Shown in pieces: positions 3,466-26,938 of a stretch of 37,963 bases of DNA. Both the position numbers and the translations under genes were made by a program. Location of the stretch: contig JAIKYR010000130.1 in assembly GCA_024682995.1 (NCBI GenBank), positions 1 to 37,963 on the forward strand, written 5' to 3'. Each line of letters begins with the position of its first letter. Position 1 is the first letter of the stretch. Below the pieces are notes generated by a model that had not been told where the DNA came from, did no database searches, and saw nothing but the letters and a program-made list of their open reading frames with translations. The DNA comes from Bacteroidales bacterium. GTDB taxonomy: Bacteria > Bacteroidota > Bacteroidia > Bacteroidales > WCHB1-69.

Positions 3466-3606
3466 AGGTTGAAGTGTTCAACACTGTGTTCAAAAGGCGT
3501 TATAATTAAAGTGTAAGATTATGATTATCAATACAATAAATAAAATTCGCAATTTTCGTTTTCCGCTCAACAAAAAGAGACGCAATGCATTGCGTCTCTT
3601 TTTGTT
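3466..3606 (+). ncRNA. Candidate short transcript (sRNA or remnant)
   Basis: This is inferred only from a promoter-like box at 3453-3460 and a strong intrinsic terminator ending near 3606, which together define a plus-strand transcript of roughly 140 nt with no convincing protein. The terminator is shared with the convergent NRPS gene, so its presence alone does not prove transcription from the left. It could be a small RNA, a decayed gene, or nothing. Confidence 0.25.
3569..3606. terminator. Bidirectional intrinsic terminator
   Basis: A 38-bp perfect palindrome: the stem core AGAGACGCAATGCATTGCGTCTCT is flanked by an A-tract on the left and a T-tract on the right, so it forms a hairpin followed by a U-run on either strand. 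It sits 16 bp after the NRPS stop codon (minus strand) and would also end any plus-strand transcript from the left. Confidence 0.85.
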
Positions 3607-3621
3607 TACCATCGGATCTCA

Positions 3622-6600
3622 TCATTCGAAGAACTCCAACCCGCTGATGGCGTTCAACATACGGTCAACATAGTCCCATGTGGTAGCCGACCACTTGAAG
3701 CCCAAGCGGTAGAGCACCTGCGAGGTGTACTGGTTCGCGATATTCACAAACTCCGCCTTCATGCCATGCGCCATATCCTGGTATGCCAGCAAGCTGGAAA
3801 GTATTTTGGCCTTCTGTGGGTCGTTGCCCGCCTGCTCCAGCGTCTCCTCATATTCCTTGTCTTCTACTAACTTGATATCGGTGCCCACATTGCTGAGGCC
3901 GCTGAGCACATCGCCGAAGAACTGCGAATGGTTGTTGTAGGCGTGGAACACACAACAGGCCTTGGGCGTAGTGGCAAGCAGGATGATGGCATGCGCCACC
4001 TCGTTGATGGGTGAAAACTCAACCTCTTGCTCGTATAACGAATACGGGAAACAGCCTAACATGTTGTACACTTTGATACGGCCCATGAAGGCGTTAGTGG
4101 AGAAGTTGATCTGGAACTCGCCGTCTGTGGAACGTGCCGACAAATTACCGACGCGGATGACCTTCGCGACAAGTCCATTCTCAGCAACCGCCTGTAACAC
4201 AACCCGTTCCGCCAGGAATTTGGAATGGGTGTACTGGTTTCCGAGATATTGGCCGCCATAGAGTTGTTGCTCGGTGAACACATAGCCAGGCTCCATCGAG
4301 CTGTTCACATTCAGACCGCGGGTGCTGGCCGTGGAAATATGCACCAGCTTTGCGCCCGTGGCCACGCAGAAATCGACACAACGCTGCACCCCACCGACAT
4401 TCACATCCTCAATCTCGGTGCCTTCGCTGAAGTGCTTCACCACGGCAGCACAATTGAAGACGGTGTCGATCTTTGCCTGCACGAGCGTGGTCAAGTCGTT
4501 GGTGACGTCGCCAAGGACTATATGGAGACGCTTGTCGAAGAGCTCGTCGTAAGTATTCTCGAAATAGTAGAACAGCAGCGTTTTAAGTCTATGCTCGGCA
4601 CCATCCATATCTTTGTCGCGCACCATACAGTAGATCTCCTGGGCATCCGAGTCGATCAGCTCTTTCAGGACGTGAATACCGAGATAGCCGGTCGCGCCAG
4701 TAAGCAAGGCGTTGCCCAGCTGCAGGCGCTCTCCCCTACCGAACTCTTCCAGACTATTGTTTTCCAGCACTTTGTTAATGTCCGCATAGTCAAAATCGGC
4801 AATATCCTCTTCCTCCGTGCTGACAGTAGTGTTGCCCGTGACGAGGGCGGCGAGTTTGCGCGGCGTGGGATTGGCGAAGACATCGCCGTAGGCTACATGC
4901 ACCCCTTGCTTGTCGGCCTCGATGATGACGCGGGTCACCATGAGCGAGGTGCCGCCCAAGTCGAAGAAGTTGTCGGTGGAACCGATTTTGTCGATGGCAA
5001 GGATTTCGCCGAAGATGCGGCAGAAGAGCTCCTCAGCCGAGTTGGCTGGCGCCACATAGTCGCGGTCGGCAGCCTGCAACACCGGTGTCGGCAAGGCCTT
5101 CCTGTTCACCTTCTGGTTCTGGTTCAACGGGATGCTGTCGATCTGCATCGTCGCCGCTGGAATCATATACGGCGGTTTCTGCTGCCCGATGAATGCGTTG
5201 AGATCCTTCACATCAATTTCTTTGTCGCTGACGATGTAAGCAACAATATATTTTCCACCCTTCTCATAATCAAAGGCTTGCACGGTAACATCCTTGATGC
5301 CCGGATACTGGCGGATGACGGCCTCCACCTCTTTCATCTCGATACGGAAGCCGCGAATCTTCACCTGCCCGTCCTTGCGCCCCACGAACTGGATATTGCC
5401 ATCGGGGAGATAACGCACAATGTCGCCGGTGCGATAGACGCGGGCGTGCTTCGGGTCGTCACAAAAAGAATTCTGGAGGTAGGTCTCGGCGGTCTTCTCG
5501 GGACGGTTCAGATAGCCGCGGCTCACCTGCGGGCCCGTGACCCACAACTCGCCAGCAGCTCCGAGAGGCAATCTGTTAAATTGTTTGTCAACGATATACA
5601 GTTTCAGATTATCCAGCGGCTTGCCGATGGGAATGTCCAGCTCATAATCCTTCACCCAATAGTTGGTGGTGAAAATGGTACACTCTGTTGGGCCATAGCC
5701 GTTGTACATCTTGAAGCTGGTCGGCGGGTTGAGGGCGGACAGCTTCTCGCCACCCACAGCAAAGCAGCGCAGCGAGTGGTTCTCCACATTCGTCACGAAC
5801 TGGTAGCCTACCTGCGTGGTGATAAACGAGTGGGTGATACCCTGCGTGTTGAAATAGTTGTTGAGGTCGGGCAAATTGAGACGGATGTCTTCCCCGATGA
5901 TGTGGACACAGGCTCCGCAGGTCAGCGCCGGGTAGAGGTCCATCATGCAGGCATCGAAGCCGTAGCTGGCATAGGCAGCCACTTTGTCGGCAGCCGTAAG
6001 CCCATAGAATCGTTGATACCAATGGCAGAAGGCCACGAGGTTGCCGTGCTCCAGCTGACAACCCTTGGGCGTGCCTGTGGAACCGGAAGTATAGAGCATG
6101 ATGAAAAGACTTGACGGGGTAATGTCCGCCTTCACGGGCTCCACAACCGGCAGTGTGTCTATATCCTTGGTCAACAGCACTTTGCCTTGGTACTCGTCCA
6201 CCACAGGACGCAACTCTTCATCGGCAATGAGCAGTTTAGCATCGGCATCCTTCATCATAAAGTTCAAACGCTCAGCCGGATAGCTCGGATCGAGGGGTTG
6301 GTAGGCACAACCAGCCTTCAACACACCGAGAGAGACGATGGCCATCCATTCGCAACGCGGAATCAAGACAGAGACCACATCTTCATTGCCAAGACCTTGT
6401 GATTTCACATAACCCGCAATGCGCTCCGAGAGCTCATCCACCTCGCGATAGGTGTAACGATGGTCATGATAGACCACAGCGAGATTATCGGGCGTTTGCG
6501 CCACCTGGCGGCGGAAGAGCGACACTATGTTTTGCGTGTCGTCGTAGGGCACATCGGTCTGATTGAAGCTGTCGAGCAAAGCGGTTTGTTCGGCATCCAG

Positions 6601-9600
6601 CAGAGAGACCTGTTGCAGCGCCACCTCAGGATGGTGGATGAACGCATTGGCCGCATTGCATACCGACTGCGCCAGACTTTGCATCAATCCGTGGCTGTAA
6701 CGACCATTGTCGTATTCAACCATCACACCCGGCACGCCTTCCTTCTCTTGAATGTAGAAAGCGATACGGAACTTTGGTGTCTTCAGTTCCAGAGACTCTA
6801 TTTCAAGCTTCTGACCATTGACCACATATTGGTCGATCACGCCCATCTGATAAGCGAACATGATTTCGGCCGACAAGTCGTAATCGGCGGCAATCTGCGC
6901 AAAAGGATACTTCTCGTGGGTCAAAGTCTCGTCAAAGTTCTGGCTGGTCTCTTTTAAAAAGTCCATCACCTTTTGTTCGCCAATCTGGGCACTCAAAGCC
7001 AAAGTGTTGACGAACATGCCAGTCGTGTTGCTAATGCGCAGGTCGGAACGGCCGTTGCTGATGGTGGTGATGCAGATCTGCTCGTTGTTGGTGAAACGCG
7101 AGAGCGTATAGAACACCGCCGCCAAAGTGAGGTGCGCAGGCGAGAGGTTGTTCTTCTTGCAGAATTCCTCCATCGCGTTGAAGTCCATCTTGGAGAAGGT
7201 CTCGCTGACGGTGCCTTGCTCCAAAGGATTGGTCAAGTCGGCAGGCACCTCGGTGACTCCTTCCACCTTGCCCAAACGCTCGTTGAAGAAGTTCTTGGCT
7301 TCCATGTAGTTCGGAGTCCCTTCAGCAGCTTTCTCATCGGCCACGAAGCCGGCATAACTGATGGCTTCGGCCTCGATTTCCTTGCCATTCATCAGTTCGC
7401 ACAACTGGTTCAGGAACAGATCGAAAGAGCTGCCGTCGAAAATCAGGTGATGCACATCTGCCAAGAGATAAACATCTTGCTCGGTGGTGACGATTTCCAT
7501 ACGGTACAACGGTCCTTGTCGCAAGTTGAACGGCTTGACAAATTCCAACTTGTATTTCTTCAGTTCCGCCTCGCTCAACTGGCTCTTTGTGATGGCAAGA
7601 GGTTGATTTTTGTCAACAATTTGCACAATTTCGCCTCCTTCGCTATCAAAATGTACAAAGAACTGCGGGTGCGCCTTGATGAGGGTCTCAATGGATTTTC
7701 CAAGCAATTGTACATCAGTGCCTTTTGGGAAACGGATAAGCGAAGGAATGTTGTACACCGTGGAGGTGGGCTGTTTCATGCAATCCACATAGACACCCAT
7801 CTGCGCGTAGGACAACGGAGCATTCTTTAATTCGGAATTACTGGCATTTGAAACAGCCTGAACAGGAGCGTTTAGGAGCTGTTTTAGAATCTCATTCTCA
7901 ATCGTTTGTATGTTTCCCGTTTTGACCAAAGATTTGGAATCCACTGTGATACCGTATTTCTTGTTCAGCTGTACAGCCAGTTTGATGGCGGAGATGGAGG
8001 TGAGCCCAACGTAGCCAAGCACGGTGGTTAGGCCGAAGTCTTTGGTGCCTACTATGCCCGCAACGATTTCGTGCAGTTCCTCTTCCAGGATGTTCATCGG
8101 CGCATTGCTCTCCACCTCAGCGGCAGACGCTTTCTTTTCGGGCTTCGGCAGTGCTTTCTTGTTTACCTTCTGGTTCTGGTTGAGCGGAATACGGTCGATT
8201 TGCATCGTCACGGCAGGCACCATGTAAGGCGGTTTCTCATCCAGAATGAAGTTGTTAAGAGCTTCAACGTCAATCTGTTCGTCTGCAACGATATAAGCTG
8301 CAATGAACTTGCCACCGCTCTCTTCGTCAAAGGCCTGCACGGTAACATCCTTGATGCCTGGGTATTGGCGGATGATGGCCTCGACCTCCGTAAGTTCAAT
8401 GCGGAAACCGCGAATCTTCACCTGTCCGTCGCGACGGCCCACAAACTGGATGTTTCCATCAGGAAGGTAACGCACGATGTCGCCAGTGCGGTAGCAGCGA
8501 CCCCAGGGCGTTTCCACGAAAGACTCGGCAGTCTTCTCCGGACGATTCAGATAGCCGCGTCCCACCTGAGGGCCATTGACCCATAGCTCGCCGGCAGCGC
8601 CTACAGGTAACCTGTGCCCGTACGCATCCATGATGTACAGATGCATATTCTCCACTGCCTTTCCTATGGGGATGTTCTGCAGCTTCTCCTTCACAGCAAA
8701 TGCCGTCACATAACAGATACTCTCTGAAGGACCATAACCGTTCAAGAGCAAATAGGGAGGAGGCGTGACATCCGCCAGTTTCTCACCGCCGGTGATAAAG
8801 GCCTTCAGGGAGTGATTGGCGATATCGTTGACAAAAGAACGTGCCACCTGTGTCGTCATGAACGTATGGGTGATGCCGTTCTGTTCAAAATAGTCGTTCA
8901 GCGCGATGAGGTCAAGACGGATCTCTTCAGGAATGATATAGACGGTAGCACCCACTATGAGCGGCGGCCATAATTCGAGCAAACAAGCGTCAAAGCCGAA
9001 ACTGGCATACGCTCCAATGTGACTATCCGCTTCAACATGCAGGGTATGTTGGTGCATGTAGCTAAACGCCACCATATTCCGATGTTCGAGTTGACATCCC
9101 TTAGGCACACCCGTAGAGCCACTGGTGTAGATTAGCGTAAAGAGGCTCTCGGGCTTGGGCCCATCAAGTGCATTGGAATCCTTCAGGTTCTCAATGTCTT
9201 TGGTGAGTAGCACTTCACCCTTGTATTCATCCAAGATGGAACAGAGTTCCTCGTCGGCGATCAGCAGTTTGGAGGCCGTATCCTGCATCATGAAGCTCAG
9301 GCGCTCTTTCGGATAGGTGGGGTCCAACGGCTGATAAGCACATCCTGCCTTCAGCACACCCAGCGAGGCGATGGCCATCCATTCTGAACGAGCTATCAGA
9401 ATGGCCACCACATCCTCAAGTCCTAATCCTTTCGATGCAATATAGCTTGCAATGCGGTCACTGATGTCATCCACTTCGGCGTATGTAAATCGCTTGTCCT
9501 TGAAGACCACAGCCGTCTTGTCGGGCGTAGCTTTGGCTTGACGGCGGAACAGCGATACGATGGTCTGCGTGTCGTCGTATGGCTTGTCGGTTTCGTTGAA

Positions 9601-10863
9601 ACTGTCGAGCAGGTCGCATTGGTTCTTGGTGCAGATGTCAATGTCACGCAAGAGGGTTTGGCTTAGAAAGCCCTCCAAAACCGCCTCGTAACTCTCCATG
9701 AATTGGTCAATCAGCGTCTCAGAGTATTCGTTGGAACTGTATTCCGCTCTGATATGATATTTTTTGCCGACATAGAACGCCATCAGATAAAGCGACACTC
9801 CCTCGTTGTGCTTGCGGAGCTGTATGGCCTCCATGGGTTTGCCCATCAGTTCGGTGTAATCAAACATGAGTCCGTGCCATGCAAATGTGGTGTTGATTTG
9901 CAGGTTGAGGTCAGTCATCATGTCGGTATAGGAATAGAGGGCGTGCTTGCGACAGCCGATCATCTGTTCCTCGCCAGCTTTCAGGAAGTCAAGCACGGAG
10001 GTCTCTTCCGTGAACTTGGCATAAACGGGCAACGTCTTCACCGTCATGCCCACGGAATGTTGGAATTTCCGTTCGGTACGGCCGTTGAAAACCGTGGCAA
10101 ACAGCGATTCATGCTCGTTGTTATATTTGGCCAATAGAAAGGAATAGGCTGCCGTGAAAAATGTGCTTTTCTTGATGCCGTTGGTCTTGCAGAAGGCATC
10201 CACCCGATCCATGTCGGTGCCGAGGATGCGGACTTTATGGGCATCCGAGTGTTCAGGAACCTCCAAATCGGGCATGAGCTGGGTGAACGTGTCGCTGCAG
10301 TCAAAATTCTGGGCGTACCATTGTTTGCCCTCCTCGAAAGCAGGCGTTTTGCGCATCTCGACTTCAGCAAGGGCAAATTCCTGCATCGACATCTCCTCGG
10401 AAGCAAGCGTGACACCGTTGTAAGCCTTTTCCACATCGTAGATGATAATATTGTACGAGGTGCCGTCGCTGATGATATGATGCATGTCGAAGAGCCAATA
10501 GACATGCTCCGCGTCTCGCATCACTTTGGTATGAAACAACCTGCCACCAAGGAGTTTGAAAGGCTCGATAAATTTTTGCTTCTCAGCCTCAAGGTCCGTA
10601 ACTTGTTCAACAGAAAGGTGGAATTCCTCTTTTTCCAGGTCAATAGTCTGCACGGGCTCCCCCTCATCACTCAGCTCAATGCGTGTAAAAAAAACGGGAT
10701 GAGCCTTTATCGTTGTTTCGATGGCACGACACAATCGGTCGGCATCGAGGCTGCCATCCAGAACAAAGAGAAAAGGGAGGTTATAAAAGACTTCATTTTC
10801 GTGCTGCACGCACTCGGCATAAATACCTAATTGCGATTGAGATAATGGTGATGTGTTCTTCAT
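3622..10863 (-). CDS. Dimodular NRPS, C-A-T-C-A-T-R
   Basis: A 2413-residue nonribosomal peptide synthetase. Domains in order are: condensation C1 (about 5-415, HHIISDG at 128-134), adenylation A1 (about 435-905, YTSGSTGVPKG at 579, NGYGPSE at 708, YRTGD at 791), carrier T1 (about 925-995, Ser956 in an unusual GLTSIS), C2 (about 1012-1425, HHLIFDG at 1138), A2 (about 1445-1925, YTSGSTGTPKG at 1591, NGYGPTE at 1721), T2 (about 1935-2010, LGGTSL with Ser1973) and a terminal thioester reductase (2050-2405, NAD(P)-binding TGATGYLG at 2055, Thr2178/Tyr2211/Lys2215). All catalytic motifs are present. By hand alignment to GrsA the specificity residues are D-A-L-F-I-G-G-C-Y for A1 and D-A-M-F-A-G-G-I-F for A2, suggesting hydrophobic residues. 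The N-terminal C domain suggests N-acylation, and the reductase suggests release as an aldehyde. It is the last gene of the 15.25-3.6 kb unit. Architecture is certain; the product is inferred. Confidence 0.95.
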   Translation of the reverse strand: MKNTSPLSQSQLGIYAECVQHENEVFYNLPFLFVLDGSLDADRLCRAIETTIKAHPVFFTRIELSDEGEPVQTIDLEKEEFHLSVEQVTDLEAEKQKFIEPFKLLGGRLFHTKVMRDAEHVYWLFDMHHIISDGTSYNIIIYDVEKAYNGVTLASEEMSMQEFALAEVEMRKTPAFEEGKQWYAQNFDCSDTFTQLMPDLEVPEHSDAHKVRILGTDMDRVDAFCKTNGIKKSTFFTAAYSFLLAKYNNEHESLFATVFNGRTERKFQHSVGMTVKTLPVYAKFTEETSVLDFLKAGEEQMIGCRKHALYSYTDMMTDLNLQINTTFAWHGLMFDYTELMGKPMEAIQLRKHNEGVSLYLMAFYVGKKYHIRAEYSSNEYSETLIDQFMESYEAVLEGFLSQTLLRDIDICTKNQCDLLDSFNETDKPYDDTQTIVSLFRRQAKATPDKTAVVFKDKRFTYAEVDDISDRIASYIASKGLGLEDVVAILIARSEWMAIASLGVLKAGCAYQPLDPTYPKERLSFMMQDTASKLLIADEELCSILDEYKGEVLLTKDIENLKDSNALDGPKPESLFTLIYTSGSTGVPKGCQLEHRNMVAFSYMHQHTLHVEADSHIGAYASFGFDACLLELWPPLIVGATVYIIPEEIRLDLIALNDYFEQNGITHTFMTTQVARSFVNDIANHSLKAFITGGEKLADVTPPPYLLLNGYGPSESICYVTAFAVKEKLQNIPIGKAVENMHLYIMDAYGHRLPVGAAGELWVNGPQVGRGYLNRPEKTAESFVETPWGRCYRTGDIVRYLPDGNIQFVGRRDGQVKIRGFRIELTEVEAIIRQYPGIKDVTVQAFDEESGGKFIAAYIVADEQIDVEALNNFILDEKPPYMVPAVTMQIDRIPLNQNQKVNKKALPKPEKKASAAEVESNAPMNILEEELHEIVAGIVGTKDFGLTTVLGYVGLTSISAIKLAVQLNKKYGITVDSKSLVKTGNIQTIENEILKQLLNAPVQAVSNASNSELKNAPLSYAQMGVYVDCMKQPTSTVYNIPSLIRFPKGTDVQLLGKSIETLIKAHPQFFVHFDSEGGEIVQIVDKNQPLAITKSQLSEAELKKYKLEFVKPFNLRQGPLYRMEIVTTEQDVYLLADVHHLIFDGSSFDLFLNQLCELMNGKEIEAEAISYAGFVADEKAAEGTPNYMEAKNFFNERLGKVEGVTEVPADLTNPLEQGTVSETFSKMDFNAMEEFCKKNNLSPAHLTLAAVFYTLSRFTNNEQICITTISNGRSDLRISNTTGMFVNTLALSAQIGEQKVMDFLKETSQNFDETLTHEKYPFAQIAADYDLSAEIMFAYQMGVIDQYVVNGQKLEIESLELKTPKFRIAFYIQEKEGVPGVMVEYDNGRYSHGLMQSLAQSVCNAANAFIHHPEVALQQVSLLDAEQTALLDSFNQTDVPYDDTQNIVSLFRRQVAQTPDNLAVVYHDHRYTYREVDELSERIAGYVKSQGLGNEDVVSVLIPRCEWMAIVSLGVLKAGCAYQPLDPSYPAERLNFMMKDADAKLLIADEELRPVVDEYQGKVLLTKDIDTLPVVEPVKADITPSSLFIMLYTSGSTGTPKGCQLEHGNLVAFCHWYQRFYGLTAADKVAAYASYGFDACMMDLYPALTCGACVHIIGEDIRLNLPDLNNYFNTQGITHSFITTQVGYQFVTNVENHSLRCFAVGGEKLSALNPPTSFKMYNGYGPTECTIFTTNYWVKDYELDIPIGKPLDNLKLYIVDKQFNRLPLGAAGELWVTGPQVSRGYLNRPEKTAETYLQNSFCDDPKHARVYRTGDIVRYLPDGNIQFVGRKDGQVKIRGFRIEMKEVEAVIRQYPGIKDVTVQAFDYEKGGKYIVAYIVSDKEIDVKDLNAFIGQQKPPYMIPAATMQIDSIPLNQNQKVNRKALPTPVLQAADRDYVAPANSAEELFCRIFGEILAIDKIGSTDNFFDLGGTSLMVTRVIIEADKQGVHVAYGDVFANPTPRKLAALVTGNTTVSTEEEDIADFDYADINKVLENNSLEEFGRGERLQLGNALLTGATGYLGIHVLKELIDSDAQEIYCMVRDKDMDGAEHRLKTLLFYYFENTYDELFDKRLHIVLGDVTNDLTTLVQAKIDTVFNCAAVVKHFSEGTEIEDVNVGGVQRCVDFCVATGAKLVHISTASTRGLNVNSSMEPGYVFTEQQLYGGQYLGNQYTHSKFLAERVVLQAVAENGLVAKVIRVGNLSARSTDGEFQINFSTNAFMGRIKVYNMLGCFPYSLYEQEVEFSPINEVAHAIILLATTPKACCVFHAYNNHSQFFGDVLSGLSNVGTDIKLVEDKEYEETLEQAGNDPQKAKILSSLLAYQDMAHGMKAEFVNIANQYTSQVLYRLGFKWSATTWDYVDRMLNAISGLEFFE

Positions 10864-10918
10864 ATCGGTTGTGTTTCTCTATTTGTTATTGTTCGATGTA
10901 AGGTTTCCGGATTTGGGG

Positions 10919-12256
10919 CTATTGTTTCTTCTTGTCATTCCACGGCAAGGTGAAAATCGTCGGGTTGACAGTCAGCATCACCCAGCCCCAGTGCAAACGG
11001 CGGTTTTGGGAGACCTGCTGGAGAATCTCCATCGACTCTGTTCCTCTCATGTAGGAATACCCGGCTGCCACCTTGACAAATTTCGCGAAAGTATAGCTTA
11101 TACCGACTTCGAATTCATGCCCCAAAGGTTTCTTTATTCTATTTAAATTGGCGGCGATGGCGTAGAAGTGATAGGCGGCGTCGATTTTCAGGCCTTTAAC
11201 GGGGTTGACGGAACCTCCGGCATAGAGGTTCTGCAAGCCGGGAGAAAAGTTGTTTACATAACTGTCCATATAGAAGAAGTCCATGGCGCCATAGAATTCG
11301 TGGTGTGATCCAAACAAAGGGCTAAAAGCACGGGCTTTGTCATGGAATATGAGACCTAAACCTCCGTTGATCTGGACGGGGAATTGGTCGCCACTCAGGT
11401 AATCATAGCCGGCATAGAGGGAGTACATATCGCTGGGAGCAACTTGGAGCTTCGCACTTCCCATGAAGGCGTCCAGCTTCATTCCGTTCTCCTCTCTTCC
11501 CATCTGATAGTAGAAAGAACCTTCCAAGGTGACGATGCTGGGTTTCAATTTCACATAGCCTCCGAACAGTTGCTGAAAGAAGGTTGTGTCCGGAAAATTG
11601 GAGTTCTTGCACTGGACCCCGATGTTCATGCCAAGCAGGGAAAAACCGAACAGCGACTTCGGTGTTTCGTAGTGATACCAAAGTGTTTGCATGGTCTTAT
11701 AGGGCTGAATTCCGCCGGCATAGTAATTGGTGCCTTGTGATATGTTTTCCGAATTCTGGTTGTAGGCGAGGAGTACGTGTACTTTGTGTCCGTAGCCTTC
11801 AAAGCCTAATTTCAGTGCATCGTGGGTGGGCGCGGTCATCGTCCAGTCATCGTAACCGAGAATACGCTCGTCGTCATATTCGAAACACTGACGGCCGATT
11901 TTGGCAAAAAGTCCAGTCTTGTTGTGCTTCATCGAGAGCCAGCCCTCCGACAGGCTCAGATTCCCGCCAGCCTGACCCCAGATCCCGGAAAACTGTGGCG
12001 AGAGCTTCAACTCGAACCAGTCGGACCGCTTGTATCCGATGTTGAGCCGGTACTGTCCCATGATAAAATGGGCCATCCGCTCGTTTTCGTCTTCTTCCAA
12101 GACGTTGAATCCGCCGACACGAATCTCACCACGGGTATTCAGCTTGGCATCAATGGTGAACTCATTTTGAGGATCTTGCGCCTGCAGGTCTTGGATCGCC
12201 ATAATGGCGGCAACGACCCATATCCATTTGATGAATTTAATACAATGAGAATGCAT
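10919..12256 (-). CDS. Alginate-export-like outer-membrane barrel
   Basis: A 445-residue protein with a signal peptide (hydrophobic 8-22, likely cleavage after Ala26 in LQA/QD). The rest is alternating beta-strand sequence with many aromatic residues and no further membrane helix, as expected of an outer-membrane beta-barrel. The block IGRQCFEYDDERILGYDDW near 120-138 resembles the GRQ-x-YGDxRLxG-x-xxW signature of the alginate-export porin family (AlgE-like). Family members form outer-membrane channels, often for anionic polysaccharide. Here the gene lies between the PPTase (15 bp) and the NRPS (55 bp) on the same strand, so I infer it could pass the peptide product or a precursor across the outer membrane. 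An alternative is a general porin trapped in the operon. ATG 12256 fits the signal peptide. Confidence 0.75.
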   Translation of the reverse strand: MHSHCIKFIKWIWVVAAIMAIQDLQAQDPQNEFTIDAKLNTRGEIRVGGFNVLEEDENERMAHFIMGQYRLNIGYKRSDWFELKLSPQFSGIWGQAGGNLSLSEGWLSMKHNKTGLFAKIGRQCFEYDDERILGYDDWTMTAPTHDALKLGFEGYGHKVHVLLAYNQNSENISQGTNYYAGGIQPYKTMQTLWYHYETPKSLFGFSLLGMNIGVQCKNSNFPDTTFFQQLFGGYVKLKPSIVTLEGSFYYQMGREENGMKLDAFMGSAKLQVAPSDMYSLYAGYDYLSGDQFPVQINGGLGLIFHDKARAFSPLFGSHHEFYGAMDFFYMDSYVNNFSPGLQNLYAGGSVNPVKGLKIDAAYHFYAIAANLNRIKKPLGHEFEVGISYTFAKFVKVAAGYSYMRGTESMEILQQVSQNRRLHWGWVMLTVNPTIFTLPWNDKKKQ

Positions 12257-12271
12257 ATTTGATGTTTTATT

Positions 12272-12838
12272 TCACATTTTACGATGGTTTACGATGGAAT
12301 AGATGTAATCACCCGTCTGTATAGTTTCAAAATGGCAACCGTCCGTTTCGCAAAGCACCATTTTCATATCATTGCGGATCCCTTCGCCGGTGAGCTTGAG
12401 CAGAGCCTCCTTCCGGGTCCAAAAGTGGAAAAACTGCATCGTAGGATTTGGTGACGCTTCTATTTGCGCCTGCTCCTGATCGTTCATCGTGAAGCGGATC
12501 AGCGAAGGGGACACTTGACGGGGAACCTCCACATCTGCGCCCACAGGCTGGTTGCTGACGGCGCACAAGGCGACATGACCGGAATGGCTGAAGCTGAAAT
12601 GGATGTCCGGGTAGTCGATCAGGAACGGTTTCCCCCCAGCCTGATAGCCGAAAATGGGATTGTCCATGATGTCATATTCCTCCCGGAGAGCCTTCTTCAG
12701 CAGCAAATAGACAGCCAACGAGAGGCGTCTCCCGCTCTCATACCGGAACTTCAACGCCTGCTCACGCCGCTGAGCAGAGACTTCAGCCAAGGCAGCTGCC
12801 AAATCCAGTTCGGAGATGTTTTCGTCGATATAAACCAT
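12272..12838 (-). CDS. 4'-phosphopantetheinyl transferase, Sfp type
   Basis: A 188-residue enzyme that transfers phosphopantetheine from coenzyme A to the conserved serine of carrier domains. The three Sfp-family motifs are visible: FSFSHSG (81-87), the Mg-binding GADVE (100-104, Asp102 and Glu104) and FWTRKEALLK (139-148, Lys143/Glu144). It is shorter than Bacillus Sfp (about 224 residues) but contains both half-domains. Its natural substrates are presumably Ser956 and Ser1973 of the NRPS two genes downstream. A role on the acyl carrier protein of fatty-acid synthesis cannot be excluded. The start codon (12838) is separated from the STAS stop codon by a single base, indicating tight coupling. 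Confidence 0.93.
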   Translation of the reverse strand: MVYIDENISELDLAAALAEVSAQRREQALKFRYESGRRLSLAVYLLLKKALREEYDIMDNPIFGYQAGGKPFLIDYPDIHFSFSHSGHVALCAVSNQPVGADVEVPRQVSPSLIRFTMNDQEQAQIEASPNPTMQFFHFWTRKEALLKLTGEGIRNDMKMVLCETDGCHFETIQTGDYIYSIVNHRKM

Positions 12839-12839
12839 A

Positions 12840-13145
12840 TTAGCCGATGGTCTCGAAAATGGCGTCCAACTTGGTCATCTTGAAGACCTGCATCACATCA
12901 GGACAGACATTCCTCAAATAGACCTTGCCTCCTTTGGCTGCCACCTCCTTTCTGATCTTCAAAAAGATACGCAACCCAGAGCTACTGATAAACGGCATCT
13001 TCTCACAATCCAGAATGATATTCTGGTCAGCATGTTGCAACAAAGGGTCAATGGTCTCGGCAATCTGCTGTGCAGCCACAGTGTCCAATCGCCCGTCAAA
13101 CGCGGCTATGATAGTAGCACCCTCTTCAGTAATTGTAATATTCAT
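12840..13145 (-). CDS. STAS-domain anti-sigma-antagonist-like protein
   Basis: A 101-residue single STAS domain of the SpoIIAA/RsbV type, starting at ATG 13145. In partner-switching systems such proteins are phosphorylated on a serine by an RsbW-like kinase and dephosphorylated by a PP2C phosphatase; the unphosphorylated form binds the kinase. The phosphoacceptor region reads MPFISSSGLRIF (50-61). By alignment with the usual FxDSSGL, Ser55 is the acceptor, and the preceding Asp is replaced by Ser54. The gene lies 42 bp downstream of the sensor/phosphatase/ATPase gene and 1 bp before the PPTase, so its partner is almost certainly the upstream protein. No cognate sigma factor is in the window, so the output may be another protein. 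Confidence 0.88.
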   Translation of the reverse strand: MNITITEEGATIIAAFDGRLDTVAAQQIAETIDPLLQHADQNIILDCEKMPFISSSGLRIFLKIRKEVAAKGGKVYLRNVCPDVMQVFKMTKLDAIFETIG

Positions 13146-13187
13146 AATCTGATGAATTATTGATTATCTATAAATTATGCCAATAAA

Positions 13188-15251
13188 TTAACACGACCCA
13201 AAACTTTTCCTCATCCTCAACACATTCCACCCGTCCTCACGTGCATACTCCACCTTGTCCATAATCTCTTTGATGATAAAAATACCCAGACCTCCGATCT
13301 GCCGTTCTTCCAGAGGTACATCCAGATTGACCTCCTGCTGTTGCAGCGGATTGAAGGGAACCCCCATATCTTTGATTTCCACAAGGATATCCTCATTATC
13401 AATTTTGGCAGAGAGGTTCACTTCGCCTTGGGTGCCCTCTTGGTAGGCATACATGATGACGTTGGCCAGCACCTCCTCCAAAGCAAGGTTGACACTGGGC
13501 AGGAGGGCCATATCCAGGTTATGGCGGTCGAAGAATTCCATCAGAAAGGGTTCCAGCCGTTCCAGCTCATGGATATTGTTGGTCAAAGTAAGCTGTTGTT
13601 CGGCAGACAGATAGCGTATGGAGAGCAGTGTCAGGTCATCGCTTTGCTCGGCGTGGTCCACGAATTGGCTCACGCGTTCCCGTATGTGGGAGAGTTGCTC
13701 TTTGGCAGGCAAAGAGCCGAACTCGGCAGCGGCATCAAGGGCTCTCTTCTCTCCGAAGAGATCCTTCTGGATGTTCTCTGCCTCCGTCAGGCCGTCGGTA
13801 TAGAGCAGCAGCGTGTCGCCGGGAGTCAGAGCCATCTCATGGGCTGTGTATTGGGCAGAGGGTTCCACGCCAAGCAGCAGGGACGGCTCCGTGGACAAAA
13901 ATTCGGCTCTTCCGTTTTTCACCAAGATTGGGGGATTGTGCCCGGCGTTGCAGTAGCGGATTATCCCAGTGGACAAGTCCATGACACCGAGGAACATCGT
14001 GATGAACATGATGTCCGGGTTATTGTCGCTGACAGAGCTGTTGAGGGCCTGCATGATGCTGTCGGGGCGTTCGTCCCGGGCCGAAAGGGTACGGAACAGG
14101 CTGTGCGCGATGGCCATCAGCAGTGCGGCAGGGACGCCCTTGCCAGAGACATCGCCAATGCAGAACAGCAACTTGCCATCCCGCACATAGTAGTCGTACA
14201 GGTCGCCACCCACAAACTTGGCCGGCACCTGCAATCCGCCGACATCCACATATTTTCCCGCATCCGACAGAAGAGTGGAAGGCAGTAGCGACTGCTGGAT
14301 ATCGCGGGCAATGGCCAGCTCATCCTCAATGTGTTGCTCCTTGGCACGCACCTCGTTCAGCTTCCAAAGGTTCTGGATGGAGCGGTAGGCGATGAAGAAA
14401 ACCGTAAGGATGCCCGTCAAGGCCAGGAGGACGAAGAAGAGGGTTGACCGCCGCAGTCGGTTATACATGTCGGCGTCGGGAATTGTCAAAATCAGGACCA
14501 GATTCTTGCCGTCCACGGCTTCGGAAAAGACATGGCATTTGCCTTTGGGCTTTGTCGGGGGTGTCACCACGCTGGCCCCGCTTTGGGTCATCAGGGCGCA
14601 GGTGCTGTGGGGGTAAAGCGTGACACTGTTGACGATGCTGGCGAGCGTGTCGATGGTAACATCCGCGTTGATCACGCCCACCACCTCGCCGAGGCTGTCG
14701 CGGATGGGGAGGCCATAGGACATCATATAGGCCTTCCCGCCGGCGTTGTCGTAGTACGGGTCGCTCCACCTACCCTTTTCGGAGGCCATCCCCTTCTGGA
14801 ACCACTCCATCTGAAAATAGTCGTGGTCAGGTCCTCCCAGCTGGACGGACACCATGGTGTCGCATCCCTTCTGATACCCCACGTAAGGCTCGAACCAGCG
14901 ACCTTTTTCAGGATAATAGTCCTCTTTGAAGGCGATGCCCGCGCCCATGATGCGGGAGCTGGACTCCACGGTGTGACGGGCAATGTCGTACATCGCCTCA
15001 GGGTCGTCTAAGGCATATTCCACCATCGGTTGGATGGAGTTGACAACCGTCTCTATCTTCCCCATCCGGATAGAGATCATCATCTCGGTGTTCTTCAGGG
15101 TAGAATTCGCCCGTTTCTCGGCAATACGAAGCGACTCCTTCCGGATGTGGAAATAGTAAACCGCGCTGACCATCGCCAAAACGACGATAGCAGCGACGAT
15201 CTTCAAAAGCTCCTTCTTGGCGAATGTGTATTTACCCGTTTTGGATGACAT
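13188..15251 (-). CDS. Membrane sensor PP2C phosphatase fused to RsbW-like ATPase
   Basis: A 687-residue inner-membrane signalling protein. In order it has TM1 (about 16-34), a periplasmic sensor of the Cache type (about 40-265, with WFEPYVGYQKG and DPYYDNAGGKAYMMSY), TM2 (270-290), a short linker, a SpoIIE/RsbU-type PP2C phosphatase (about 310-548; metal ligands in VGGDLYD Asp350, IGDVSGKG Asp367, DGLTEA Asp486 and SDDLT Asp538/539), and a C-terminal HATPase_c domain of the RsbW type (about 555-685; N-box ALEEVLANVIMYAY with Asn597, DMGVPFNP, and GGLGIFIIKE). Phosphatase and kinase-like modules on one chain plus the adjacent STAS protein form a complete partner-switch set. An extracytoplasmic ligand probably sets the phosphorylation state of the STAS protein. 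It is the first gene of the unit ending with the NRPS. Confidence 0.92.
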   Translation of the reverse strand: MSSKTGKYTFAKKELLKIVAAIVVLAMVSAVYYFHIRKESLRIAEKRANSTLKNTEMMISIRMGKIETVVNSIQPMVEYALDDPEAMYDIARHTVESSSRIMGAGIAFKEDYYPEKGRWFEPYVGYQKGCDTMVSVQLGGPDHDYFQMEWFQKGMASEKGRWSDPYYDNAGGKAYMMSYGLPIRDSLGEVVGVINADVTIDTLASIVNSVTLYPHSTCALMTQSGASVVTPPTKPKGKCHVFSEAVDGKNLVLILTIPDADMYNRLRRSTLFFVLLALTGILTVFFIAYRSIQNLWKLNEVRAKEQHIEDELAIARDIQQSLLPSTLLSDAGKYVDVGGLQVPAKFVGGDLYDYYVRDGKLLFCIGDVSGKGVPAALLMAIAHSLFRTLSARDERPDSIMQALNSSVSDNNPDIMFITMFLGVMDLSTGIIRYCNAGHNPPILVKNGRAEFLSTEPSLLLGVEPSAQYTAHEMALTPGDTLLLYTDGLTEAENIQKDLFGEKRALDAAAEFGSLPAKEQLSHIRERVSQFVDHAEQSDDLTLLSIRYLSAEQQLTLTNNIHELERLEPFLMEFFDRHNLDMALLPSVNLALEEVLANVIMYAYQEGTQGEVNLSAKIDNEDILVEIKDMGVPFNPLQQQEVNLDVPLEERQIGGLGIFIIKEIMDKVEYAREDGWNVLRMRKSFGSC

Positions 15252-15272
15252 GAGCGTTTAAGATAGAGTGTG

Positions 15273-15280
15273 CAAAAATA
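15273..15280 (-). promoter_or_regulatory. Candidate -7 box for the NRPS operon
   Basis: Read on the minus strand this is TATTTTTG, matching TAnnTTTG, 22 bp before the phosphatase start codon. No convincing -33 TTTG is seen at the usual distance. No other such box was found in the four internal gaps, so this may drive the whole 15.25-3.6 kb unit. Confidence 0.5.
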
Positions 15281-15370
15281 AACAAAAAAAGGATAGGCTT
15301 GCAGATGAAGCGACAAACAAGATCAGTTCTGGAATCTGATTACGGAAACGGAATGGGGCCGTACTTAAGC

Positions 15371-15409
15371 ACAAAAAAAGCACCTTCTTCGTGGTGCTTT
15401 TTTTTGTGC
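15371..15409. terminator. Intrinsic terminator after pyrI
   Basis: The hairpin AGCACC (15379-15384) pairs with GGTGCT (15393-15398) around an 8-base loop, with an A-tract on the left and T-tract on the right, so it can work in both directions. It lies about 40-75 bp past the pyrI stop and insulates the pyrimidine genes from the NRPS operon. Confidence 0.8.
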
Positions 15410-17067: not shown

Positions 17068-19629
17068 CTAACGGCCAACCGGCAACAGCTCCATCCGGTC
17101 AAACAGCAGCATATTGGGGACTATCACGCTGCAGGGCACCCCCGACATAGGAGGTTCTACACCACTATATTGGGAACCGTTCATCATCATATTATGGGCG
17201 AGCAATTCCTTTGTGGCCGCCGACACGTTCAGGAAATCATAAAAATGACGTTCTTGGGCACAGGCCATCCGAACAGGTATCTCCTTGCCAGTATGCACAT
17301 CCACTTGCACCATATACAGGGGATGGAAATCCGACTCAGACCAATATTCCGACATATTCCGGCTATGGAATTTACGGATAATGTAAGCATGGCTGTATCC
17401 GGCGGCGCGGGCTTTCTTGCAAAGCATCTTTTTCAGATTCTGTGTGTTCGTCGTTTGGTGGCACGTCAAGCGCAACACGCCGGCACCCACCATTGGCCGC
17501 AAACGATTATTTGAAAGGGCCAGCCTCCGATGACCGTTGGATGTCTTGGAAGAGAGTGTGGGCGTACGATCGGAGAGCAGGCTGTAGAGTTCGCCCCGGT
17601 GGATGATTTCCATGTGCGGGGGAACCTTCACTCCTTCGGCATCCACGTTATACTGGCCAATAAGCCGCATACCGCCGTAACTTCCGAAGGTGTCTATCGC
17701 ATCCACGTCGCAGGAGGCATTTATCACTTGCTGCGACAGGCATTTCTCCAACCGACTGCCTACCACATTATGGCGGACATGTTCGCTCAACGGGATACGA
17801 AACGCATATATGCTCTGATTTGTGTTTTCAGTAAACGCATGGGCGAAAAGTTGGGCCACCGCCTCACCTTCCACCAACACTGGCCCGTCGTAATACTGCG
17901 TGGGTTTGGACGCCGCTGCCATCTGTTTCAAACGGTTGCTCAGCAGATTCATCCGTTTCTGCCATTCGGCCATATCGGGCAAATCCTCTAAATCCCGCAC
18001 ATAGACAAGGTCTTCATCGGAGAATTTTCCACCATCGGGTGTCTTGATTTCTGCTGAAAGGTGGATGCATATAACCGAGAAAGGCTGACGGTATTGAAGA
18101 CGGTCGCTGGAATAATAGCACACCTCAGCCTGATAGGCATCCGCATTCACCTGGGATTCTATCGTAGTGTCCTGCCCGAGCATTGCCGACAATTCGCAAA
18201 CCAGTGCCACCATTTTGTCCTTGTCCACAGGTTTATTTTTCTTTTCCGCATCATAAAAACGCGGTTCCTCCCGATAGCCATCACGGGGACGTTTTATGCG
18301 TTCCCATGAATCAAACGAGTTCATAACCACGTTTTTGTATTCGAGTTCCTGCCACGCCTGACGATAAGCAGCATCCAACGAACGGCGCAACAAAGTCCTG
18401 AAATTGTCGTAATGACTGTCCGCCGGCAGGCTCACGGGTTTTGTCTGCTTGTGGAAATAACCCTCCACCCCATCATTGTTCAGCAGGTTGTCACCCAGCA
18501 ACACCCGGCTATCCAGCGTCCGAACAGGCGTTTCTACCATCTGAAGCAGCGTACCGGCACGGGCTTCTGCCTGCAGACTCCAGCCATCCACCCAATAAAA
18601 CTCCGACCGATAGGGCACAGGCATCCCTTTGTCTTGCAATTCCAAATCTATCTCCTCCACCTCATCACGTACAGCACGGAAAAACATATCGGATGCTGTT
18701 TCAACTGCGTGGTCATGATGGGTTTCGTAGGGCGACAATATAAAACGTTCTTTATATTCGGTATAATTATCCCCCGAAAGAGACGGTTTCTCCATATTCT
18801 CCTGAAAATCCCGAAGCAGGCTGTCAACCACGTTGTGCCATTCGTTTTCCGATGGCACAAGATTCGGGCTTATAGTCTCCAATTGTTGATCCACCTTGAA
18901 ATGTGAACCATCGGGCCGTCTTCCCCGTATCGCAAACTTGTAATCCGCTGTTTCTTCATTTTCAACCTCATAGCTTCCTTCACTATCCACGAACCACGAT
19001 CTTCTGCATTCGTAATTCATTATAGCCTCACTCTCACTATTTGACATATCCCGCACATAGGCCGTAATCTGTCCGAGCAAACCCGAGCACACCTTCGGAT
19101 CAAAAGACTCCAGCTGTTTCGGCTGGTAGCCAACCCGTTGCACAGGATGAGTGAAGACATCGTCTTCAGATTGGGCCATAAAATGTTTCTGAATGCGTAA
19201 CGTCTGATATTCTTTACGTGCCGCTTTATAGGCCTCATCCACCGCCGAACGGATGATGCTGCGGACGAGTGGTTCATTTTCATCGTACAACGGCAACAAG
19301 ACAAAGCCTCCTTCGTGATAATTGGTGGCCCGATCCAAGTCACCCACGACAATGTCCACGAAAAGCCAACGCTCGTATGTCGGGTTCGGGGCAACGGGAC
19401 TGCCCATATAAGCAGCCAAGTTGCACGAGTGTTCCTCCACCACCCTCAGCGACATATACGTAACCGGAGCGTCGCCTTTGGAAAGGTTGGAAAACAATCT
19501 GTTATGTTCTTCCTGTAAAATAGTTCCGATAAAATCTTCCTCCAATTCCTGAGGTTGCGCCCAAGTGGCACCCGCCGCACCGAAGCACAGCAACAAGGTG
19601 CAAAAGAGGATTTTACGCAAAGTTTTCAT
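17068..19629 (-). CDS. Secreted TldD/PmbA-like protein with duplicated N-terminal region
   Basis: An 853-residue protein with a Sec signal peptide (hydrophobic 7-20, cleavage near Ala24 in TWA/QP). The C-terminal third has the hallmarks of the TldD/PmbA (modulator of gyrase, peptidase U62) C-terminal domain: GQYNVDAEGVKVPPHMEII with GELYSLLSDR, KTSNGHRRL, and an ending VPCSVIVPNMLLFDRMELL. The HExxxH zinc motif of catalytic TldD is not seen; the equivalent stretch reads VEGEAVAQLFAHAF (586-599), so it may be a non-catalytic TldE/PmbA-type member. Residues about 40-270 (VTYMSLRVVEEHS ... VDIVVGD ... VDEAYKAARKEYQ) reappear in diverged form at about 315-565 (VPYRSEFYWVDGW ... VLLGD ... LDAAYRQAWQELE). 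It starts 15 bp after purA, so it is probably co-transcribed. Its role outside the cytoplasm is unknown. Confidence 0.75.
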   Translation of the reverse strand: MKTLRKILFCTLLLCFGAAGATWAQPQELEEDFIGTILQEEHNRLFSNLSKGDAPVTYMSLRVVEEHSCNLAAYMGSPVAPNPTYERWLFVDIVVGDLDRATNYHEGGFVLLPLYDENEPLVRSIIRSAVDEAYKAARKEYQTLRIQKHFMAQSEDDVFTHPVQRVGYQPKQLESFDPKVCSGLLGQITAYVRDMSNSESEAIMNYECRRSWFVDSEGSYEVENEETADYKFAIRGRRPDGSHFKVDQQLETISPNLVPSENEWHNVVDSLLRDFQENMEKPSLSGDNYTEYKERFILSPYETHHDHAVETASDMFFRAVRDEVEEIDLELQDKGMPVPYRSEFYWVDGWSLQAEARAGTLLQMVETPVRTLDSRVLLGDNLLNNDGVEGYFHKQTKPVSLPADSHYDNFRTLLRRSLDAAYRQAWQELEYKNVVMNSFDSWERIKRPRDGYREEPRFYDAEKKNKPVDKDKMVALVCELSAMLGQDTTIESQVNADAYQAEVCYYSSDRLQYRQPFSVICIHLSAEIKTPDGGKFSDEDLVYVRDLEDLPDMAEWQKRMNLLSNRLKQMAAASKPTQYYDGPVLVEGEAVAQLFAHAFTENTNQSIYAFRIPLSEHVRHNVVGSRLEKCLSQQVINASCDVDAIDTFGSYGGMRLIGQYNVDAEGVKVPPHMEIIHRGELYSLLSDRTPTLSSKTSNGHRRLALSNNRLRPMVGAGVLRLTCHQTTNTQNLKKMLCKKARAAGYSHAYIIRKFHSRNMSEYWSESDFHPLYMVQVDVHTGKEIPVRMACAQERHFYDFLNVSAATKELLAHNMMMNGSQYSGVEPPMSGVPCSVIVPNMLLFDRMELLPVGR

Positions 19630-26800: not shown

Positions 26801-26938
26801 TTCAAACTGGGGAAGGCCAAATACGCCACCCTGTTCCGTCCCGAGCGGCAGAATGTGGTGGAACAGAACGTAATGCAGCTGAAGACCCGTATTCATGAAG
26901 CCCTGAAAGCCAATGTGAAACCGCCGTCCGCCGAATGA
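23870..26938 (+). CDS. AsmA-like membrane-anchored protein
   Basis: A 1022-residue protein with one N-terminal membrane helix (about 6-31) followed by a very long periplasmic, beta-rich region and a conserved AsmA-type C-terminus (ETNLKSNYDLKYSTLRGAAAINGQ ... LRFKKNTPNRIDSLSAEMTI). The N-terminal block after the helix (TKIVNQEAPNWLTCDFHLDRAELTFFKSFPHLGIDIQDVTL) is typical of the family. AsmA-like/repeating beta-groove proteins bridge inner and outer membranes and are implicated in lipid transport. That role is knowledge of the family, not shown here. The start ATG 23870 lies 4 bp after the lipoprotein stop, so murB, the lipoprotein and this gene form an operon. Confidence 0.9.
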   Translation: MRKGIKITLITLVSLLGLLVAGIGIVLLTVFSPARLTKIVNQEAPNWLTCDFHLDRAELTFFKSFPHLGIDIQDVTLINRMFGAPTDTLLHVDHCVASLNVRKLMRDKHVEVNEFLVKNGQLNIFTNNLGQSNLNILKPFNKDTTDTTSYSFHLQKVETQNVDLRYINIASGLVADVDNVNLTANGSWNDPDAEGKIKLLTDQLVFKTLHDKKIVAKYDQLDGAFEGSLNDLDRLEGTLDLTLDKASFSMDTDVYLDQQDITLHSDMKAALADQTLQLQNTQLSLDRYKLALEGSASRDTAANDLALNLNYETGNWPLHDVLELIPRAIIGNALYDLSLDGLVHLTGQVKGHLNERQSPIITTDVNLVNGSFAKKDFPLEFQKINSTFHLDLNPNDKTSVQVKQLNAYTGRNYLTATGSIQDLLGEMLFDLALTGDLHVEDFLNMLPDKLAHSSGKAKAALNVKCNYDQVARLAIDQWVADGTFDFTQLNLAYGDSMFITSPALNLKFFFPVKQKPYKIGEWIYTQIQAPKLQVRQVGSMDIAANDAHLDGYLNNLTDSTLPLKLGVKYNMGTVKVKTDSLMADLTQPSGTFVMPDNNQMKLDYSGSAISADLGSGLLVKSRALTLNAATHYNPKGSNTLMQWNPTAKLSLHNGVVTVPAIEYPLELPKLVADINPKQCNITKGDGKLGNSDFSLSGKISQIDDYFNGKDLMKGTLEFTSDYIDLNQIMDMFSGLGVSDSVMAEKPENSQKDPFMVPYGMNIRMNTHIKKALYEDTYFRNIGGFLDLKDGTLVLEEMAVTHDAARMQLTAMYQSPRKNHLFLGLDFHLLDIKIDQLIALIPEVDTILPMLKSFAGNAEFHFAIETNLKSNYDLKYSTLRGAAAINGQNLVVLDQETFGNIAKKLRFKKNTPNRIDSLSAEMTIFKNEIDVYPFLVSIDKYQAILSGRHNLNMDYQYNISLIKPIRLGLDIIGTDKRRFKLGKAKYATLFRPERQNVVEQNVMQLKTRIHEALKANVKPPSAE

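Follow-up and report, generated by a model that had tools for sequence, protein, structure and literature searches.

Do a membrane sensor, a partner-switching protein and a nonribosomal peptide synthetase (NRPS) whose genes lie side by side in a Bacteroidales genome belong together, and, if they do, what does the sensor control? The question is raised by five genes on contig JAIKYR010000130.1 of assembly GCA_024682995.1 (GTDB lineage WCHB1-69), of which we analysed a stretch of 37,963 nucleotides, called the window here. The genes encode a sensor with a dCache ectodomain and with PP2C phosphatase and HATPase domains, a STAS-only protein, an Sfp-type phosphopantetheinyl transferase (PPTase), an outer-membrane beta-barrel and a two-module NRPS (Table 1). 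We found that sensor, switch and synthetase form one real, conserved unit. The whole account that we build on this unit, a signal-gated small-peptide operon of ruminant-gut Bacteroidales, we regard as an even call.

The conservation of the unit was seen from two directions, using five search profiles built from window-seeded matches in the same loci. We took the best 80 of 127 barrel relatives, ranked by similarity to the window's barrel, and recorded the genes within 10 kb on the same strand. A sensor was found in 60 of the 80 loci, a STAS protein in 59, a synthetase in 54 and a PPTase in 13; sensor, STAS protein and synthetase occurred together in 45 of them; where each side extended for 5 kb or more, 37 of 59 loci had all three. 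The gene order was sensor-STAS-barrel-synthetase in 27 of the 80, the same with a trailing PPTase in 6 and barrel-sensor-STAS-synthetase in 7, and the order of the window, sensor-STAS-PPTase-barrel-synthetase, was found in 3, and a further locus differed from it by an additional PPTase at the start. When loci of the same genus were seeded with the synthetase instead, sensor and STAS protein were present in 14 of 15, the barrel in 13 and the PPTase in 7 (five times between STAS protein and barrel and twice after the synthetase). The 15 comprise L111-L126, in which L122 and L123 make up a single locus; L127, L128, L129 and L130 were dropped as truncated or broken, and L171 and L177, outside the 15, also have sensor, STAS protein and synthetase. 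The two sets are not independent, because 10 of the 15 synthetase-seeded loci lie on contigs that are also in the barrel-seeded set; the five unshared loci (L113, L114, L115, L117 and L120) all have sensor and STAS protein, and three have the barrel. An earlier note on this DNA, made from its sequence, had named as the outcome that would count against it related synthetases that consistently lack the upstream genes, and these counts are the reverse of that outcome. It had also proposed that relatives be searched for the five-gene order; in that search the linkage of sensor, STAS protein and synthetase proved to be conserved, and the set of five, with its infrequent PPTase, did not hold up as a unit. 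Among the 80 records of barrel relatives, 27 name a ruminant animal, 33 carry RUG codes (presumably for rumen uncultured genomes), one carries a RUI code and 19 give no source, and from these relatives we infer a ruminant-gut habitat.

In the window, all five genes are on the minus strand between two hairpins, with intergenic gaps of 42, 1, 15 and 55 bp. Recomputed coordinates and gaps agree with the five same-strand genes and gaps of 1-55 bp described earlier, and Pfam bore out each of the families then assigned (Cache-PP2C-ATPase sensor, STAS protein, Sfp-type PPTase, alginate-export-like barrel and NRPS). Every catalytic motif looked for in the operon proteins was found intact. The strong terminator that had been placed at the end of the operon is recovered as the hairpin after the NRPS gene, and the upstream hairpin divides the operon from the pyrimidine genes pyrI and pyrB; a generic terminator scan listed neither hairpin. 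The front of the operon had been described as carrying one promoter-like box, TATTTTTG, which fits the pattern TAnnTTTG, which we take to be the primary-sigma promoter type of Bacteroidota. The bare pattern was rejected as promoter evidence in the window, where it is near chance (24 found versus 17.2 expected, with at least 24 in 6 of 100 shuffles). Its position is what recurs: among 63 sensor sequences, which include the window's sensor and its paralogue, 36 have it no more than 150 bp 5' of the gene, versus 7.6% of shuffled upstream regions, and 19 of the 27 sensors without it directly follow the barrel or an MnmE-type family, that is, lie within a longer gene run. That this is the single promoter is uncertain, since a sigma-70 scan gave a 10-of-12 match in the gap between sensor and STAS genes (13183-13156, minus strand), which makes a second promoter possible; the region around it holds 19 sigma-70-like matches versus 12.5 expected.

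Table 1. Features of the operon and its borders, in window coordinates. C, condensation; A, adenylation; T, carrier; R, reductase domain.
Feature	Position	Strand	Basis or remark
Terminator-like hairpin after the NRPS gene	3569..3606	-	-23.9 kcal/mol, z -7.1
NRPS, C-A-T-C-A-T-R, 2413 aa	3622..10863	-	Pfam, motifs, full-length same-genus relatives
NRPS thioester reductase	3829..4716, boundaries approximate	-	GATGYLG at 2056, YTHSK at 2211
NRPS T2	4840..5025	-	LGGTSL at residue 1969
NRPS A2	5089..6516, boundaries approximate	-	presumed code DAMFAGGIF
NRPS C2	6574..7824	-	HHLIFDG at residue 1138
NRPS T1	7879..8076, boundaries approximate	-	GLTSIS at residue 953
NRPS A1	8149..9546, boundaries approximate	-	presumed nine-residue code DALFIGGCY
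NRPS C1, starter position	9574..10863, boundaries approximate	-	HHIISDG at residue 128
Outer-membrane beta-barrel, 445 aa, predicted AlgE/Occ-like fold	10919..12256	-	PF13372, AlphaFold model, Foldseek
Sfp-type PPTase, 188 aa	12272..12838	-	Pfam ACPS (PF01648), G000:C102:12341-12547
STAS-only protein, 101 aa	12840..13145	-	Pfam STAS; S55-S56-G57 invariant in 64/64 sequences
Sensor, membrane protein, 687 aa	13188..15251	-	dCache ectodomain ~30-275, SpoIIE-type PP2C 358-547, RsbW-like HATPase 562-682
TATTTTTG box, pattern TAnnTTTG	15273..15280	-	box start 29 bp 5' of sensor ATG
Terminator-like hairpin between pyrI and sensor gene, upstream border	15369..15409	-	z -7.4

We propose that the dCache ectodomain would bind a small extracellular molecule, of a class that we can name only tentatively, and would thereby shift the balance between phosphatase and kinase within the sensor. 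By analogy with known families, this balance would set the phosphorylation of the STAS protein at Ser56, and the STAS protein would in turn gate production by contacting a pathway enzyme, putatively the synthetase or the PPTase, and not by freeing a sigma factor. The PPTase, as its family predicts, would activate both carrier domains of the synthetase, which would join two amino acids, probably behind an acyl cap supplied by C1; the reductase would then release a reactive C-terminal aldehyde, reductive release being known from such families. The barrel may pass the product, or a related small solute, across the outer membrane, the direction of transport being presumed. Judged from the sequences, the most likely product is an N-capped dipeptide aldehyde made under an extracellular signal, with a post-translational rather than a sigma-factor output. 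The earlier note had read the locus as a system that senses a signal, makes a small peptide and passes it through the outer membrane; sensing and synthesis fit the parts that we found, and passage through the barrel stays unproven in view of the relatives of the barrel in nitrite-reductase operons and of an operon without an inner-membrane exporter.

A number of observations weigh against this account. Both sensor and STAS protein are missing from locus L118, which has the barrel and the synthetase, and L113 and L117 have the synthetase without the barrel. Of the 80 barrel-seeded loci, 26 lack a same-strand synthetase within 10 kb (10 with sensor and STAS protein, 4 with the sensor only and 12 with none of these); contig ends cut several of the 26 short, and L102 has its synthetase on the opposite strand. 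A tblastn check found a 34-residue synthetase remnant after the barrel in L042/L161 and no remnant beside the barrel in the other synthetase-less loci checked. In L051/L140 sensor and barrel are both split, each into two frames; loss of the synthetase followed by decay, which would speak for the account, fits these sequences, in two loci only. SpoIIE proteins occur in 30 of 40 genomes of the genus, up to eight in each, and pairs of sensor and STAS protein occur without a synthetase; the pair is thus not confined to this pathway. The window's genome (G000) also holds 14 sigma70_r2 matches and a third, stand-alone HATPase_c_2 protein (G000:C119). Between the two sensor groups described below, the ectodomains share only about 20-30% of their residues, which means that the two groups may not bind the same ligand. 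A barrel relative at E 1e-40 was found in 106 of 295 genomes sampled across the order; because the family is this common and has relatives in nitrite-reductase operons, the barrel does not imply export, and the operon of the window contains no inner-membrane exporter (no MatE and no MFS). Finally, no substrate could be read from the presumed nine-residue codes of the adenylation domains, and the naming of substrates was given up.

The strongest of the alternatives concerns the barrel, which may import the sensed molecule or another small solute and not export a peptide, a serious possibility that we place a little short of even. The barrel matched Pfam Alginate_exp (PF13372) at 28.3 bits versus a cut-off of 25.2, with a best stretch of 51 residues, and the top Foldseek matches of its AlphaFold model (mean predicted local distance difference test score, pLDDT, 79.8) were to AlgE at a TM score of about 0.64, followed by other porins that include Occ channels. 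AlgE is an exporter, which argues against import, whereas the Occ porins among the close matches argue for it. Despite the fold match and a PF13372 score slightly above the cut-off, the barrel differs from AlgE in sequence (about 12% identity) and in having relatives in nitrite-reductase operons, and no linked alginate synthesis genes were found among 19 window open reading frames scanned with Pfam. A Parabacteroides homologue (36% identity) lies inside an annotated nrfHA-ResB-CcsA operon, and three of the four relatives that follow next by score (L211, L212 and L214) have a gene for cytochrome c552 nitrite reductase (NrfA) upstream in the same layout, with NrfH-like, ResB and cytochrome assembly proteins also confirmed in L212. 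These contexts favour import, as do the two synthetase loci without a barrel, but the fourth relative, L213, has a different layout, and the barrels of the group are set apart by sequence: among the 295 genomes, those of the window and of G238 scored at least 688 bits and the next best relative 428. On these scores the barrel forms a subfamily of its own within a wider family of porin-like proteins. The G238 barrel stands alone, with no sensor, STAS protein or synthetase in the stretch examined. Export of the product through the barrel is our guess; the transport reading as such is supported, at the level of sequence, by a MatE family found 3' of the synthetase in 12 of the 80 barrel-seeded loci. 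One relative, L046, has a second synthetase with an MFS gene next to it. A plasmid search with the barrel returned five records, the gene context being viewed for one of them. In other Bacteroidota, barrel relatives lie directly 3' of genes for cytochrome c nitrite reductase and cytochrome assembly (L211, L212, L214 and L139).

Pfam recognized SpoIIE, HATPase_c_2 and MCP-like_PDC_1 on the sensor, with dCache_1 slightly under its cut-off. Its PP2C and HATPase motifs are intact, with key residues near-invariant across 64 sequences, and the HATPase domain matches NCBIfam models of RsbW/SpoIIAB type, all under their curated cut-offs. Ser56 of the STAS protein aligns, in an alignment to SpoIIAA chains, with SpoIIAA residue 58, which we take to be the phosphoserine. 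By sequence, the pair has two marks of partner switching, an intact PP2C and RsbW-like HATPase and a STAS protein with a conserved serine. The modelled ectodomain (pLDDT 93.3) matched structures of dCache domains that bind amines and amino acids, including 3lib, which is among the domains with an amine motif (PMC10104139). Of the residues of the PctA motif (R126, W128, Y144, D146 and D173; PMC9540692), equivalents placed by residue spacing and not by alignment to PctA are present as W150, Y166, D168 and D197, and Met148 replaces the carboxyl-binding Arg. Because of this replacement the amino-acid and CahR autoinducer-2 (AI-2) motifs are excluded as published, and the sensor was rejected as a dCache_1AA amino-acid receptor or a CahR AI-2 receptor. 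The dCache_1AM motif (PMC10104139) combines two central aromatics, hydrophobic and S/T positions and a final D with an R103/D133 insertion; placed by spacing as well, W150, F151 and D197 fit it, M176 and S178 fit with a one-residue shift, and the insertion and W155 were left unplaced. The ligand is possibly amine-like.

What the switch acts on bears on the second alternative. Neither a sigma factor nor an effector enzyme was identified within the operon as the target of the switch. If this is partner switching of the classical kind, a sigma factor would be bound by the HATPase domain or by the stand-alone HATPase_c_2 protein until dephosphorylation of the STAS protein freed it to transcribe the operon or a wider regulon. 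The RsbW/SpoIIAB-type matches, below cut-off as they are, speak for this output, as do the stand-alone protein and the sigma70_r2 matches of the genome. We nevertheless consider it unlikely: no sigma or anti-sigma gene was found among 20 representative neighbour proteins scanned, and the box before the sensor looks like that of a primary sigma factor. Bacterial-type sigma factors are not known from archaea, so the similar set of phosphatase, antagonist and synthetase in an archaeon, described below, disfavours a sigma output, as this counterpart could not use a bacterial sigma factor. Because of the primary-type box, the archaeal counterpart and paralogues linked to RelA/SpoT genes, we infer that the output of the STAS protein is contact with an enzyme. 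Known systems offer likenesses for such an output. In Pseudomonas SiaABCD the STAS protein SiaC acts on a non-sigma target, SiaD (PMC8457831), and in Vibrio fischeri SypE is a dual kinase/phosphatase and the STAS protein SypA has its serine at position 56 (PMC8256260). Unlike in these systems, the dual enzyme here is a membrane dCache sensor, and its neighbours are a synthetase and a barrel.

A tree was built from 86 sensor tails of 300 residues or more, and some of its deep forks are no more than moderately supported. In it the barrel- or synthetase-linked sensors form two groups, one of 44 rows and one of 25 rows that includes a single row linked to a PPTase only; row L133 carries a barrel-only label because the window itself is represented there by a short piece. 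A separate group of five rows holds the second pair of the window's genome, and four of the five are confirmed to lie 5' of a RelA/SpoT gene. Two further RelA/SpoT-adjoining sensors, L173 and L155, are found elsewhere in the tree. The second pair (L136:1765-6760, contig C122 of G000) consists of a dCache-SpoIIE-HATPase sensor and a STAS protein, with RelA_SpoT, APH and HD_4 genes after them. Such a pair also has a RelA_SpoT gene next to it in G006, G018, G028 and G035, and about 1 kb away in G063. At pairs linked in this way, the partner switch may control alarmone-like synthesis.

The C-A-T-C-A-T-R architecture that had been read from the synthetase stands: Pfam gave Condensation, AMP-binding and PP-binding in two stretches each plus NAD_binding_4, in that domain order, and the HHxxxDG motifs of both C domains, the serines of both carrier domains and the reductase motifs are present. 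With two modules and a terminal NAD(P)H reductase with intact motifs, the protein has the layout of the reductase-terminated dipeptide NRPSs (AusA-like). Its best full-length NCBIfam match is the aureusimine synthetase AusA, at 1153.9 bits versus a curated equivalog cut-off of 2500, and we rejected it as an AusA orthologue; it is of the same kind and not AusA itself. The T-R part is identical to PDB entry 6VTJ at 190 of 478 aligned positions (40%), and scores 330 bits versus 6VTJ and 167 versus the AusA reductase. The intact reductase motifs, the 40% identity to this archaeal T-R didomain and an Fe-dependent alcohol dehydrogenase family 3' of the synthetase in L037, L044 and L046 are sequence features that support the aldehyde reading. 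A third alternative starts from the same enzyme class: with C1 idle, the synthetase would, like AusA, release a dipeptide aldehyde whose amino group is free and which would then cyclise to a pyrazinone. That AusA is the best full-length match is in its favour; the unreached cut-off and the HHxxxDG motif retained by C1 make it doubtful, and the capped aldehyde remains our preferred product. We know of no partner-switch genes in AusA-type or ruminopeptin clusters, no search for them having been made.

Among 36 genomes of the same genus, the window's own included, 17 have a synthetase match at an E value printed as 0, and G006 has only a fragment of the reductase end. A plasmid search with the T-R part returned 287 records, all below 60% identity. 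In L010, L011, L012, L014 and L015 the domain at the A1 position is closer to the window's A2 than to its A1, a sequence pattern that suggests replacement of adenylation domains between modules. The contig of L122-L123 (L040) holds two synthetases, in the order sensor, synthetase, MatE-family gene, then STAS protein, barrel and synthetase. The neighbour families MatE, AMP-ligase-like, Fe-dependent alcohol dehydrogenase and MnmE are each named from one Pfam-scanned member.

The PPTase of the operon is the sole PF01648 match detected in the window's genome, which is 87.75% complete, so that a second one could be missed. A single match was found in 36 of the 37 positive genomes of the genus (40 searched), and in several of these genomes the lone PPTase lies inside or beside the NRPS locus. 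A housekeeping PPTase may thus be carried by the cluster, and as it probably serves fatty-acid synthesis too, it is not to be read as a dedicated pathway gene. Its best NCBIfam match is AusB, below the AusB cut-off. G034 has a sensor-STAS-PPTase unit with no barrel or synthetase nearby (L142:9730-12723), and the barrel-synthetase pair of the same genome is that of L118, without sensor or STAS protein. That adjacency at the locus reflects no more than shared inheritance of two modules, sensor-STAS-PPTase and barrel-synthetase, without functional coupling is very unlikely: pairs of sensor and STAS protein do stand before RelA/SpoT genes in G000, G006, G018, G028 and G035 and before the PPTase in G034, and barrels of the subfamily do occur alone, as in G238, but the set stays together while its order varies (27 and 7 of 80 for the two main arrangements given above), persists in two sensor groups that, by their record titles, span several families, and has a similar counterpart in an archaeon.

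That counterpart also bears on how new the combination is. In Methanobrevibacter ruminantium (2010, PMC2812497), genes for two serine phosphatases, for an antagonist of an anti-sigma factor and for a MatE exporter surround that of a two-module synthetase, mru_0068. In a second cluster, mru0513-0516, a PPTase gene is joined by genes for an antagonist, a kinase and a phosphatase; the authors proposed environment sensing and regulation for these genes. The locus of strain M1 (mru_0066-0071) resembles that of the window in its two-module synthetase, both modules of which have a condensation domain, and in the phosphatases and antagonist next to it, and the legend of Fig. S8 names a thioester reductase domain (PMC2812497). 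It differs in belonging to an archaeon, in a terminal domain that the main text gives as a thioesterase and in encoding phosphatase, antagonist and kinase as separate genes, and the portions of the paper available to us mention no outer-membrane barrel. Entry 6VTJ is from M. ruminantium (PMC8097023), and the comparison with the synthetases of this archaeon covers the T-R part. AusA and the gut dipeptide-aldehyde synthetases (ruminopeptin, PMC12327764) are alike in having two modules that end in a reductase, and AusB is the best match of our PPTase; unlike AusA and AusB, the synthetase and PPTase of the window fall under both cut-offs. A rumen survey (PMC8241843) counts 934 NRPS clusters in Bacteroidaceae, with no such switch mentioned in the part available, and a survey of Bacteroidetes natural products (PMC9248904) contains neither 'partner-switching' nor 'Bacteroidales' as a term. 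Serine phosphatases with dCache domains are listed among rumen signal receptors in PMC9540692, which also reports dimodular pyrazinone-type synthetases in 13 of 981 rumen genomes and, in the sections available, links them neither to dCache phosphatases nor to this gene context. Among the matches listed from the open-licence literature, the M. ruminantium paper was the only one to join partner switching with a synthetase. The novelty claim of the earlier note, which was worded for Bacteroidota, can be kept in part, as none of those matches describes the combination there; that the combination is undescribed in general is refuted by the mru_0068 locus (PMC2812497). What is new here is the Bacteroidales form of the combination and its spread.

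Among the main bacteria of the rumen are the Bacteroidales, from which few small molecules are known. An operon that is conserved and under signal control, and whose peptides are likely to react with proteases, would be a candidate means of communication or of competition there. Should the switch act on an enzyme rather than on a sigma factor, this would directly exemplify post-translational control of nonribosomal assembly. The parallel with the methanogen suggests an exchanged trait. A bolder version, which we put forward tentatively and think rather improbable, is a cross-domain cassette in which STAS switching directly gates a dipeptide-aldehyde synthetase (or the PPTase) in rumen Bacteroidales and rumen methanogens alike. 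If this were true, two unrelated inhabitants of one gut would make related reactive peptides and regulate them by the same kind of switch, and the sensor-STAS pairs before RelA/SpoT-type genes would be the same switch on a different enzyme.

Two long open reading frames lie elsewhere in the window. One, at 17068-19629 on the minus strand, encodes 853 residues with no Pfam or NCBIfam match at 0.01. The other, at 23870-26938 on the plus strand, encodes 1022 residues with no Pfam match at 1e-5, and its gene run includes MurB, Omp85-like and POTRA proteins.

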